64,000 nt of DNA from Fibrobacter sp. UWH4 (lineage in GTDB: Bacteria; Fibrobacterota; Fibrobacteria; Fibrobacterales; Fibrobacteraceae): assembly GCF_900142475.1 (NCBI RefSeq), contig NZ_FRAY01000004.1:124001-188000 (forward strand), read 5' to 3'. The notes beneath the pieces are model-generated. The model made no database searches. It was not told the origin of the DNA and saw only the letters and a list, made by a program, of their open reading frames with translations. Shown here piece after piece: positions 59,241 to 63,659 of the stretch. The position numbers and the translations under genes are program-made. Position 1 is the stretch's first letter. Every line of letters begins with the position of its first letter.

Positions 59241-59993
59241 TTACTTTCCCGCAATTTCCTTGGCCTTCGCCTCGATTTCAGCGATGGCTTTTGCGCGGCC
59301 TTCGGCAGTGTCTTCGTTATTGAGCACGAGGTTCACGAACACGGAGCCCGCCACCACAGCGTACACATGCTTCGAAAGCACTTTGGACTGTTCGCCGTTA
59401 CGAATACCGAAACCGCCGAGCACCTTGGCGCCACCCTTACCGACCGTGTCGATAAAGTCGAGCGTTGCCTGGTCAATTGTGGTTTCGCTTCCAGTGGTAC
59501 CAGCGCGGAGTGCAGCGTAGATGTACTTGAAGCCCTTGGAGGCCATCGTTTCGAGGCGCTCCTTGGTCATGCTAGGAGCCGCCACGGGGATGTTTTCCAG
59601 GCCGTGCTTCTTGCAAGCTTCAGTCAGGCCTTCGTCGCCGTCGAACGGCAAGTCCGGAATGATGCAAGCGGATACGCCCGCGTCCTTGCACATCTTGACG
59701 AAATTTTCGACGCCAGGGGTAAAAGCGAGCGAGCCGTAAGTCATGATGTAGATTGGCGTTTCAGGGTGACGGTCGTGAATTTTCCTAACGATTTCAAGCC
59801 CCTGCTTGGTGGAGTAACCCTTATCGAGCGCAATGGTCGATGCCGTCTGGATGGCGGGACCGTCGGCGCTCGGATCGCTGAAGGCAAGCTGAATTTCAAG
59901 GATGTTGGCGCCACCCTTCACAAGAGCGTCGGCGATGGCGATAGAAGTTTCTGCGTCCGGAAACCCGGCAATGAGATGAGACATTAAGTTCAT
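59241..59993 (-). CDS. trpA: Tryptophan synthase alpha chain TrpA
   Basis: 250 residues, TIM barrel that cleaves indole-3-glycerol phosphate. Catalytic Glu is in GGANILEIQLAFSDPSADGP and the catalytic Asp in the same stretch; other motifs are PDLPFDGDEGL and GGFGIRNGEQ. It is the second gene of trpBA. The gap to trpB is filled by a repeat. No clear ribosome site is seen, and the start could be the second ATG (MSHLIAGFPD). Confidence 0.94.
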   Translation of the reverse strand: MNLMSHLIAGFPDAETSIAIADALVKGGANILEIQLAFSDPSADGPAIQTASTIALDKGYSTKQGLEIVRKIHDRHPETPIYIMTYGSLAFTPGVENFVKMCKDAGVSACIIPDLPFDGDEGLTEACKKHGLENIPVAAPSMTKERLETMASKGFKYIYAALRAGTTGSETTIDQATLDFIDTVGKGGAKVLGGFGIRNGEQSKVLSKHVYAVVAGSVFVNLVLNNEDTAEGRAKAIAEIEAKAKEIAGK

Positions 59994-59994
59994 A

Positions 59995-60120
59995 GTGGTT
60001 AGTGGTTAGTGATTAGTGGTTGGTGGGCCGTAAGGCCGTTAGCGGTTAGTGGTTGCTGGTTAGGAATTCTTGATACCCGCGTCCCAGTATACTAACCACT
60101 GTTTACTAATCACTGTTTAC
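59995..60120. repeat. AGTGGTTAGTGGTT-type repeat between trpA and trpB
   Basis: Left block AGTGGTTAGTGGTTAGTGAT with GGCCGTAAGGCC, right inverted block TAACCACTGTTTACTAATCA. It is the fullest intergenic copy of the family and overlaps the end of trpB by four bases. Confidence 0.7.
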
Positions 60121-61442
60121 TTATTCATTATCTCCGCGTCGTGGATGTCTTCGTTATTTTCGAGGCGCTTGAGTTCGGCCTTCAGGAATTCCTTCCACTT
60201 TTCGGGGCGGAACACGGGGCTCGTGATAAAGATGTCCTTGTCGCCGCGGCCACTCATGTTGATGACGAGCGCCTTGTCCTTCGGAAGTTCCTTCGCAATC
60301 TTCATAGCGGCAGCCCCTGCATGCGCACTTTCGAGCGCGAAGAGGATGCCTTCGTTACGGGCAAAGAACTTGACCGCTTCGAGAGCCTCCTTGTCGAGAA
60401 TCGCCGTGAATTCCACGCGGCCCGATTCGCCGAGGGCGGCAAGCTGCGGGCCAATGCCCATGTAGTCAAGCCCCGCCGAGATGGAACGAGTCGGCAGCGA
60501 CTGACCGTCTTCATCAATCAGGAAGCGGCTCTTGTAACCCTGCAGAATGCCTTCGCGACTTGCGTTACCCGTCATGCGGGCAGCGTTTTCTCCCTTGTTC
60601 GGGCCAACACCACCGGCTTCGGCACCGATCAGGCGCACGTTCGCATCGTTGATGAACGGAGTGAAAACGCCGATGGAATTGCTACCGCCTCCCACGCAAG
60701 CGACAACGGCCGCAATGTCGATGTTGCGCTCGGCAGCCTGGCGCTTGACTTCTTCACCGATAATCGACTGGAAGGTACGAACGATATCCGGGAACGGAGC
60801 CGGACCAAGAGCGGAACCTAGTACATAATGGGTGTTCTTGAAATTCGTGGCCCAGTCGCGCATGGCTTCGTTCACGGCATCCTTAAGGGTGCGGGCACCG
60901 CTCGTGACCGGCACGACCTTGGCACCGTACATTTCCATGGTCGCCACGTTCGGCTGCTGACGGCGCACGTCCACCTCACCCATGTACACCACACATTCGA
61001 GGCCAAGCTTAGCGCAAGCGGCAGCCGTCGCAAGGCCATGCTGACCGGCACCCGTTTCGGCAATGATACGAGTCTTGCCCATCTTCTTCGCCAAAAGGCA
61101 CTGACCGATGGCGTTGTTGATCTTGTGCGCACCCGTATTGGCAAGGCCTTCCAGCTTGATGTAAATCTGCGCACCACCCAGAAGTTCCGTTGCGGTCGGA
61201 GCGTAATACAGCGGGGTCTCGCGCCCAATGTAGTCGCGCTGAATAATGCGGAGCTCTTTGAGGAATTCCGGATCGTGAATGTACTTGTTGAATGCCGCTT
61301 CGAGGTCGTCGAGCGGGCGGCGGATGATTTCGGCAACATACTTGCCGCCGAACTTGTCAAAGAAACCGTTGTCAGAGGTTATGAGGTGTGAGGTCGCGCC
61401 TACGGCGCTTTGAGGTGTGGGGGTTATAGTTGCGTGAGTCAT
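60117..61442 (-). CDS. trpB: Tryptophan synthase beta chain TrpB
   Basis: 441 residues, the PLP enzyme joining indole to serine. The PLP lysine is in GLANTGAHKINNAIGQCLLAKKMG; the phosphate loop is VACVGGGSNSIG and the end motif INMSGRGDKDIF. It is longer than usual TrpB: the first 23 residues (MTHATITPTPQSAVGATSHL and next) come from a dispersed CACACCTCA repeat. No in-frame ATG follows before the conserved NGFFDKFGGKYVAE, so the repeat is probably translated. A Trp attenuator lies upstream. Confidence 0.94.
   Translation of the reverse strand: MTHATITPTPQSAVGATSHLITSDNGFFDKFGGKYVAEIIRRPLDDLEAAFNKYIHDPEFLKELRIIQRDYIGRETPLYYAPTATELLGGAQIYIKLEGLANTGAHKINNAIGQCLLAKKMGKTRIIAETGAGQHGLATAAACAKLGLECVVYMGEVDVRRQQPNVATMEMYGAKVVPVTSGARTLKDAVNEAMRDWATNFKNTHYVLGSALGPAPFPDIVRTFQSIIGEEVKRQAAERNIDIAAVVACVGGGSNSIGVFTPFINDANVRLIGAEAGGVGPNKGENAARMTGNASREGILQGYKSRFLIDEDGQSLPTRSISAGLDYMGIGPQLAALGESGRVEFTAILDKEALEAVKFFARNEGILFALESAHAGAAAMKIAKELPKDKALVINMSGRGDKDIFITSPVFRPEKWKEFLKAELKRLENNEDIHDAEIMNK
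61378..61430. repeat. CACACCTCA-type repeat at the 5' end of trpB
   Basis: On the minus strand CACACCTCAAAG-hairpin-CTCACACCTCATAACCTCT, matching the intergenic copy at 22085-22134. It is in frame with trpB. Confidence 0.8.
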
Positions 61443-61480: not shown

Positions 61481-61641
61481 AAAAATTAAAGGCCTTCGGG
61501 AGTCCGAAAGCCTTTTACAAACACTTGATGAAATCAGCAAAACGGACTCTATTTAGTAGAGCCCCACCACCAACGGTTGAAACGGATTGCTGAATTCATC
61601 TTCATGTGCGCTAATTTAGGAATGTCTCTTTAGTGTGGCAA
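61481..61641 (-). promoter_or_regulatory. trp operon promoter and attenuator
   Basis: Minus strand: TTGCCA (61636-61641) and TAAATT (61613-61618) are 17 bases apart. Region 1 GGGCTCT (61558-61564) pairs with region 2 AGAGTCC (61544-61550). Region 2 can instead pair with region 3 CGGACTC (61500-61506). Region 3 also forms the terminator with region 4 (61504-61512 with 61491-61499), followed by a T-run. The Trp codons of the leader sit beside region 1. Confidence 0.88.
61549..61605 (-). CDS. trpL: Trp leader peptide with three consecutive Trp codons
   Basis: 18 codons, MKMNSAIRFNRWWWGSTK, followed by TAG in the loop of the 1:2 hairpin. The three TGG codons (61564-61572) directly precede and overlap region 1 of the attenuator. 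A ribosome stalled there for lack of Trp-tRNA would free region 2 to pair with region 3 and prevent termination. The -10 lies only about 8 bases before the first ATG, so the message starts at or very near it and no ribosome site is present. A second start at 61599 is possible. Confidence 0.85.
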   Translation of the reverse strand: MKMNSAIRFNRWWWGSTK

Positions 61642-61710: not shown

Positions 61711-61879
61711 CAAAAAAAAAGAAAGACTCTCATTTTCCAGAGAGCCTTTCACTAAACACTTGATGAAAAGGGCAATTCCTAAATCCCGATTCGTGAGAAC
61801 TTCGCTGTAGAGAGCCGAAGCGGATTGCCTCATTTCATCTTTATGCTCCTAATATACATAATAACTCATTGACTGTCAA
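61711..61879 (-). ncRNA. Second attenuator-like unit, paralogous to the trp leader
   Basis: Minus strand: TTGACA (61874-61879) and TATATT (61851-61856) 17 bases apart, a leader of about 100 bases, then terminator GGCTCTC/GAGAGTC (61740-61746 with 61725-61731) and a T-run. It aligns with the trp leader through the start and the AAGTGTTT block. The long closing stem is kept: GATGAAA..GGCAA pairs with TTGCC..TTTCATC. There are no Trp codons, and the frame from the first ATG stops after two codons. Confidence 0.65.
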
Positions 61880-62081
61880 TAGGTTAACGATCATTTTTTG
61901 TAAAAAATTCTTCTACAATTTACTCAAAACAATCCAAAATCGACCATTTGGAGCGAATACCAGGCACAATCCCCCGTGATTCTAATCATATCATCGATTT
62001 CGAGTTCTCAAAAAATTTGGAAATAGATGCTCGTTTTATTATATTTACATTGACATAGTTTAGAGTTCGCTCTTATTCGGA
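61880..62081. other. AT-rich gene-free stretch
   Basis: No reading frame, terminator or clear repeat is visible until the structured element at 62082. A GAGTT-GCTCTT-like block at 62060-62075 recalls 34852-34870. Confidence 0.5.
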
Positions 62082-62199
62082 CAGCTGGAAAACGACCAAA
62101 ATTTCATCGTCTAGGAATAAGGCCGATTACTCGCACCCCGTGGTGTGGGTCGTTTGTGCCTATTAGACGATAAGGTTTACTTGGTCGTTACCTCAGCTG
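62082..62199. ncRNA. Long imperfect hairpin element before a surface lipoprotein
   Basis: Nested pairing: CAGCTG (62082) with CAGCTG (62194), AACGACCA (62091) with TGGTCGTT (62182), ATCGTCTA (62106) with TAGACGAT (62164), and CGCACC with GGTGTG at the tip. The block GTGGGTCGTTTG is shared with 35018-35029. It ends 95 bases before a lipoprotein gene. Strand is uncertain. Confidence 0.45.
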
Positions 62200-62294
62200 T
62201 TTAGGGCACCTGCGATTCCACACTTTTTTTTGTTTGGATTGCATCCTTGAACAAGACGAACTCCGCAGTAGAATTTTTCAAAAACGGAGATGAC

Positions 62295-63659
62295 ATGAAA
62301 TCGAACCAAATCTTGGGCATTGCAAGCCTCCTCACCCTAGGAGTTCTTCCTTTCCTCGCCGCCTGCAGTAGCGACGAGAGCAGCACATCTTCACCCCATA
62401 TTCCTGAATTCAGCGCAATAAGCAGTTCAAGCGCAAAAAAAACAAGCGTGAAAACAACCTTTGAGCTGGGTAGTTGCACATACGAAAATATGGACGAACG
62501 AATCTATGTTTCTAATGAAAACGACTACTACACCTGTACTTACAGTTACACAAGCTATGACTACACCTGGGTCGGAGAAAAAGTTAAAAGCTCCAGCAGC
62601 ATTACAGTTTCCTCGAGTAGCAGCGATATCTGCGATGTATTCTATTGCTGGGATGAAACGGAATCCAGCAGTTCCATCAAATCCAGTAGTTCTACCAAAT
62701 CCTCCAGTAGTGTCAGCACATTCACAAATGTTTCTGATGTATGGAACGGCAAAATGGTTAAGCCTTCGACCGATTATATCGACGGCAAGACCTACATGCT
62801 CATCTACACCGCCGAAGAACTCGCCTACTTCGCCGATCAGGTGACCAACAAGGGTGAAGAAAAACTCAACGCAAAGTTGATGAAGCACATCCGCCTCAAT
62901 CCCGACAACATGGTCGACGAAAAAGGCAACCTCCTGATTTCGCAAAGCAAGCTTAACGAATGGACTCCCATTGGCGGCGGTACAAACAACGTTATATTTA
63001 AGGGAATTTTTGACGGCAACGGCTATACCATTTCGGGCATCTATGTCAACAAACCCGCCTTCGAACGCGCAGGCTTCATCGGCACCCTCGGCGGCACGAG
63101 CACCAGCGACAGCGGACATGTCATGTTCCTTGGAATCGAAAACTCTTACATTGTCGGTGGCGAACAGGTCGGTGGCATTGTCGGCAGAATGAACTACTCG
63201 GAAGTCCAACAAGTATTCAATAGAAAGTCCTACGTGAAGGGCACCAAGTATGCCGGCGGCATTGTCGGTTACAAAAATAACGGATGGCTCTACTATTCCT
63301 ATAATTCAGGTATGGTCGTTTCCTCGGAAGACCGCGCCTCGGGTATCGCCGGCTACAACGCCAATGCGTCTACATCAGTTATCGTCTCTTACAATGTGGG
63401 ATTCCTCATTGCACCGAACAAGGGTACTACGGCAGGCATTTCTACAACGGCAAACAGCTCTAAGGACTGTTTCTACATCGACCAAGATGACCGCGAAATC
63501 GTTGCCAACGGCGCTGCTGAAAAAACGGAATATTTCTTGTCAAGCGAAGAATTCGTGAGCACCTTGAACGGACTTTCGTTCAGCAACATCTGGACTACCG
63601 ATGATGACGAAGTAAATGACGACTACCCCGTATTCAAATGGGAAAAGATCCGATACTAA
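62295..63659 (+). CDS. Surface lipoprotein with GLUG-like repeats
   Basis: 454 residues. Lipobox LAAC (Cys24) follows MKSNQILGIASLLTLGVLPF. Two Ser-rich linkers (SSSSITVSSSSS, SSSSIKSSSSTKSSSSVS), typical of Fibrobacter surface proteins, flank a short Cys/Tyr-rich part. The rest has repeats of the GLUG kind (FKGIFDGNGYTISGIYV, GGEQVGGIVGRMNYSEV, GTKYAGGIVGYKNNGWL, SGIAGYNANAS). It may be an adhesin or bind polysaccharide. GGAG precedes the chosen start. Confidence 0.82.
   Translation: MKSNQILGIASLLTLGVLPFLAACSSDESSTSSPHIPEFSAISSSSAKKTSVKTTFELGSCTYENMDERIYVSNENDYYTCTYSYTSYDYTWVGEKVKSSSSITVSSSSSDICDVFYCWDETESSSSIKSSSSTKSSSSVSTFTNVSDVWNGKMVKPSTDYIDGKTYMLIYTAEELAYFADQVTNKGEEKLNAKLMKHIRLNPDNMVDEKGNLLISQSKLNEWTPIGGGTNNVIFKGIFDGNGYTISGIYVNKPAFERAGFIGTLGGTSTSDSGHVMFLGIENSYIVGGEQVGGIVGRMNYSEVQQVFNRKSYVKGTKYAGGIVGYKNNGWLYYSYNSGMVVSSEDRASGIAGYNANASTSVIVSYNVGFLIAPNKGTTAGISTTANSSKDCFYIDQDDREIVANGAAEKTEYFLSSEEFVSTLNGLSFSNIWTTDDDEVNDDYPVFKWEKIRY

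Follow-up and report, generated by a model that had tools for sequence, protein, structure and literature searches.

The stall-and-switch logic of attenuation in trp leaders is established. The leader RNA itself can have a second role: in Sinorhizobium meliloti the terminated trp leader, rnTrpL, acts in trans (PMC7298713). Two leader control units can also stand in series, as in the tandem attenuators of Salmonella mgtCBR, where both units lie in one long leader transcript (PMC3641672). A further described RNA of comparable layout is 6S RNA (RF00013), which is short, lies between a promoter and a terminator, and has a long closing stem.

The stretch of Fibrobacter sp. UWH4 DNA analysed here (contig NZ_FRAY01000004.1, 64,000 nt; hereafter the window) carries a trp attenuator before trpBA (U2) and a second, related unit (U1). 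A preliminary description had placed a promoter-leader-terminator unit at 61711–61879; these coordinates are right, and the unit lies on the minus strand (Table 1). The whole U1 transcript has a predicted fold of −43.2 kcal/mol with a folding z-score of −3.4, and this score, taken with homologues in 28 congeneric genomes with strong model E-values, indicates structure beyond chance. The only unpaired invariant segment, AGUGUUU, is common to U1 and U2. The U2 promoter begins about 70 nt beyond the U1 T run.

Table 1. Features of the U1 and U2 units and of the trpBA genes in the window
Feature	Position	Strand	Remarks
U1 unit, complete promoter, folded leader and terminator	61879–61712	−	directly upstream of the trpBA attenuator U2
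U1 promoter, TTGACA (61879–61874), N17, TATATT (61856–61851)	61851–61879	−	11/12 consensus
U1 predicted transcript, ~130 nt	61712–61844	−	start inferred from −10, end from terminator T run
U1 core, 94 nt, three-way junction P1/P2/P3 + AGTGTTT	61752–61845	−	match to covariance model R1
U1 P1 5′ arm, GATGAAATGAGGCAATCC, ATG inside	61822–61839	−	fold and fitted alignment
U1 P1 3′ arm, GGAATTGCCCTTTTCATC	61762–61779	−	TTTCATC invariant in all U1 compared
U1 P2 hairpin, CTTCGGCTCTCTACAGCGAAG	61800–61820	−	covarying in relatives
U1 P3 hairpin, TCTC...GGGA	61784–61798	−	fold and fitted alignment
U1 AGTGTTT, unpaired, invariant across U1 copies	61754–61760	−	alignment and divergence comparison
U1 vestigial mini-ORF, ATG AAA TGA (MK-stop), no Trp codon	61830–61838	−	neither length nor sequence conserved
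U1 intrinsic terminator, hairpin 61750–61721, then T9	61712–61750	−	hairpin kept, sequence unrelated between species
U2 (trpB leader) promoter, TTGCCA-N17-TAAATT	61613–61641	−	9/12 consensus
U2 leader peptide, MKMNSAIRFNRWWWGSTK, then stop	61549–61605	−	conserved in relatives; WWW run
U2 core, helices P1–P3 aligned with those of U1	61517–61606	−	fitted alignment, fold
U2 antiterminator strand, AGAGTCCG	61543–61550	−	pairs with CGGACTC 61506–61500
U2 terminator hairpin	61488–61515	−	terminator prediction from sequence
trpB, PALP family, tryptophan synthase beta	60117–61442	−	3′ of U2
trpA	59241–59993	−	3′ of trpB

As predicted from its sequence, U2 is a normal trp attenuator. Behind the Trp codons comes its P3 hairpin (GGGCTCT..AGAGTCC), whose 3′ strand, AGAGTCCG, pairs with the CGGACTC of the terminator; the antiterminator pairing averages −17.7 kcal/mol, against −11.0 kcal/mol when U1 terminators are swapped in. 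The start codon of the leader peptide (61605, minus strand) coincides roughly with +1/+2 of the predicted transcript, and the peptide may therefore be translated leaderless, as has been reported for peTrpL of S. meliloti. The same genome (G000) has a further trp attenuator before trpE (L200:6574–6440, minus strand), about 7 kb from U1, with the leader peptide MMNFVTCATLNRRWWRGL followed by a stop codon, and its own closing stem and terminator.

U1 corresponds to these ribosome-mediated attenuators (U2 and the trpE leader) in its promoter, closing stem, order of three helices, intrinsic terminator and ancestry, but it lacks the Trp codons, a conserved leader peptide and an antiterminator matched to the terminator, and usually has no gene directly behind it. 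It is like rnTrpL in being derived from a trp attenuator, in its predicted form of a terminated trp leader released as a free small RNA, and in the placement of a leader ORF at, or close to, the 5′ end. However, rnTrpL is released by a functional attenuator and retains the coding sequence of its peptide, whereas U1 is a separate, noncoding duplicate for which action in trans is only proposed. U1 and U2 recall the mgtCBR pair in forming a series, but U1 is bounded by a promoter and a terminator of its own, apart from the U2 promoter. The likeness to 6S RNA goes no further than the general layout: U1 is too short and has a demonstrable trp-leader ancestry, and a search of 19 Fibrobacter genomes with RF00013 gave no match, with positive controls.

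The relationship between the two units was examined with a covariance model (R1) made from seven U1 cores only and run on 81 genomes, several of which are incomplete MAGs; its E-values are rough, owing to a short calibration. Within Fibrobacter, the U1 matches of clade A have E-values of 1e-21 to 1e-26, those of clade B 1e-7 to 1e-10. The same model matches U2 at 1e-6 to 1e-12 (about 1e-10), and this recovery of U2 by a model built from U1 alone shows that the two are paralogous. No other convincing match was seen in any Fibrobacter genome beyond U1 and U2, and none outside the genus among the genomes run. In the model-fitted alignment P1, P2 and P3 are in register between the units. The closing stem GATGAAA..GGCAATtCC / GGaATTGCC..TTTCATC is found in both, as is the AAGTGTTT behind it, and TTTCATCAAGTGTTT lies at 61768–61754 in U1 and 61533–61519 in U2. 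The stems differ by compensatory changes (GGCAA/TTGCC versus CAGCA/TGCTG). The preliminary description had proposed a tandem paralogue of the trp leader that has lost its leader peptide, with a compensated closing stem, a shared block and the stronger promoter of the two, and each of these points is borne out. It had set conservation in related genomes as a test, and the model search found U1 in 28 of 49 Fibrobacter genomes (counted from the table of model matches).

In a trpB tree, the genomes with U1 are distributed across the F. succinogenes group. Outgroup Fibrobacter (L164, L166–L169) are without U1 and have a leader with WW or WWW, and since these carry the U2-type leader alone, the simplest reading is that U1 would have arisen by one tandem duplication inside the genus, early in the F. 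succinogenes group. Three near-complete ingroup genomes (G012, G029 and G034) have U2 and are missing U1, and in all three U2 has AAGAGATTT in place of AAGTGTTT. This change in genomes without U1 hints at a partner common to the two units, and may represent only one or two events. An unusual arrangement is seen in L115 (G006), where a single trp cluster has two U1 copies, followed by two DHH/DHHA2 lipoprotein genes, U2 and trpB.

One alternative is that U1 is a functionless, decaying relic of the duplicated attenuator. The loss of the leader peptide, a mini-ORF broken in differing ways and the loss of the unit from a few species are consistent with this. Divergence was compared across 14 species, using third codon positions of trpB as the yardstick (31% mean difference). 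Against this background the 14 positions of TTTCATC and AGTGTTT show 0% divergence and form the invariant motif TTTCATC-N-AGTGTTT, while across the genus the −35 element differs by 2.4%; the figures are 9% for the paired positions of P3 and 10% for the 5′ arm of P1. P2 diverges by 33% and its pairing is kept; its covariation among 18 distinct clade-A cores is higher than in every one of 500 shuffles and in all slid controls, a result that is not a probability because the shuffles ignore relatedness. Covariation in P1 comes mainly from the comparison of U1 with U2, as there is little variation in P1 among U1 copies. In clade B (L114–L116, L119 and L027) P1 is kept and the inner part folds differently by energy. 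The terminator sequence diverges by 58%, yet a good hairpin is always formed. A relic is therefore improbable, given the unchanged positions and a promoter, stems and terminator kept in 28 genomes; by these sequence comparisons U1 is under selection, which keeps the body of the three-way junction together with the unpaired AGUGUUU.

What has not been kept is the switch. The distinct U1 frames contain 0–1 Trp codons, with no Trp run in any copy. All U1 copies retain an ATG or GTG start codon where P1 begins to pair at its base, and the frame from it runs for 2, 9, 15, 18, 21, 27, 29 or >60 codons depending on the species, with frameshifts. The absence of Trp codons and the immediate stop reported at first thus describe the window correctly (a frame of two codons), but the immediate stop does not extend to relatives, with frames of 9 to >60 codons. 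The mini-ORF was rejected as coding, since it is not conserved. No consistent pairing competing with the U1 terminator was found, either by folding with a ribosome mask or by cross-species duplex permutation. The candidate antiterminator pairing of U1 has −12.4 kcal/mol with the unit's own terminator versus about −11.0 kcal/mol with swapped ones, and the permutation (P=0.03, nine representatives) draws its signal mainly from one sequence type, L107. The lack of a Trp run and of a consistent antiterminator, together with the unconserved mini-ORF, rules out U1 as a ribosome-mediated attenuator of the U2 type.

An attenuator for another amino acid, working through the mini-ORF, would explain the kept ATG/GTG and the uniform 15-codon frame of clade B (MKSVIHSDRLREGFP). 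It is highly unlikely, given the variable, frameshifted frames without a common codon run and the missing antiterminator. The same or nearly identical U1 cores are joined to unrelated terminators (L104 versus L107 types; the window versus G061) and, with no consistent antiterminator pairing, this disfavours the earlier suggestion of an attenuator for another signal, a role that may still apply where U1 is followed by a DHH/DHHA2 gene. GGCTCTC does occur twice (61816–61810 and 61746–61740), as was first noticed, but the idea that it gives the right arm of the terminator two possible partners fails in G061, which has the same core and a different terminator; the repeat is not conserved and was rejected as a switch.

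The neighbours of U1 are not fixed, as its distances to trpCF and U2 vary widely, and U1 remains linked to the trp cluster. Across genomes trpCF lies 52 to >1300 nt upstream, and in the window about 3.4 kb upstream with other genes between. U2 is about 180–240 nt downstream, or 1.3–3.5 kb where other genes intervene. Where enough upstream sequence is available, U1 follows trpCF by 50–120 nt in around half of the genomes, a position that would suit a boundary whose terminator and promoter mainly insulate trpBA from trpCF transcription. A boundary needs neither a conserved three-way junction nor AGTGTTT, and other genes separate trpCF from U1 in the window and elsewhere, leaving insulation as the main role of U1 very improbable.

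Also in this region, a very stable rod-like element (62070–62245, plus strand; MFE −67.3 kcal/mol, z −6.1) lies upstream of a lipoprotein ORF (62247–63659, plus strand) and ends in CCACACTTTTTTTT. It has no Rfam match and one copy in this genome; similar sequence is present at varying places in 15 of 25 Fibrobacter genomes. Its helix arms (ATCGTCTA/TAGACGAT in the window) appear to co-vary between species, and it looks like an undescribed structured RNA.

A further alternative is that U1 is a leader acting in cis, either a non-tryptophan attenuator or a constitutive leader, that ancestrally served a DHH/DHHA2 gene and would now serve trpBA by read-through. The best argument for it comes from L105, L106, L111 and G061, where a DHH/DHHA2 lipoprotein gene (family II pyrophosphatase-like) has its ATG about 20 nt or less from the U1 hairpin, leaving no room for a second promoter. 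In clade B, too, DHH/DHHA2 genes are found behind U1 (L114, L115), and the start codon always retained at the base of P1 would fit as well. However, in most species the interval from U1 to the U2 promoter is free of genes, the presence or absence of a DHH/DHHA2 gene makes no difference to the U1 core (L104/L024 versus L105), and there is no consistent pairing that competes with the terminator, the permutation signal being mainly that of L107. A cis leader is rather unlikely on this balance, although it deserves more weight than a relic, an insulator or an attenuator for another amino acid.

The reading that we favour, with modest confidence, is that U1 is probably a self-contained structured small RNA gene of about 130 nt, descended from a duplicated trpB attenuator. 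Among the options offered by the preliminary description, a stand-alone structured RNA fits best, and nothing specific speaks for a decoy. After the tandem duplication, early in the F. succinogenes group, the Trp codons of the leader peptide and the antiterminator fitting the terminator were lost, and with them the attenuation switch. The unit's own strong promoter and its terminator, the latter read as constitutive, would yield a free RNA of about 130 nt; both transcription of U1 and a free RNA as its product are inferred from sequence. Selection maintains the RNA body with its three-way junction, along with the AGUGUUU tail that lies unpaired beside P1.

More tentatively, U1 may be a dedicated trans-acting noncoding RNA, sharing a partner with terminated U2 RNA, the former made constitutively and the latter when tryptophan is plentiful; we regard this as possible rather than probable, with rnTrpL of S. 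meliloti as a supporting precedent. U1 would in that case provide, independently of Trp, what the attenuated trpL RNA provides under plentiful tryptophan. The most speculative step is that the action in trans on the partner of terminated U2 RNA would proceed through AGUGUUU and the 3′ strand of P1. A classical Hfq-dependent mode is unlikely, as no Hfq gene was detected in the genome of the window (TIGR02383 without a match, controls positive). The only perfect 12-nt complements of CATCAAGTGTTT (exact pattern) in this genome are those antisense to U1 and U2 themselves, so there is no obvious long-seed target, and in other genomes they are at chance level. Rfam searches at gathering and relaxed thresholds gave no real match for U1 (T-box, riboswitches and others), and no literature on small RNAs or transcription start sites of Fibrobacter was found in the library searched.

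The origin of new bacterial small RNAs has to date been mostly inferred. Here the parent, a working attenuator, and its putative noncoding offspring stand side by side in many species, and outgroups are without the copy. U1 would thus offer a case, placed on a phylogeny and open to testing, in which a leader-peptide attenuator gave rise to a small RNA gene, and for the phylum it raises the question of what binding partner of AGUGUUU may be common to U1 and U2.
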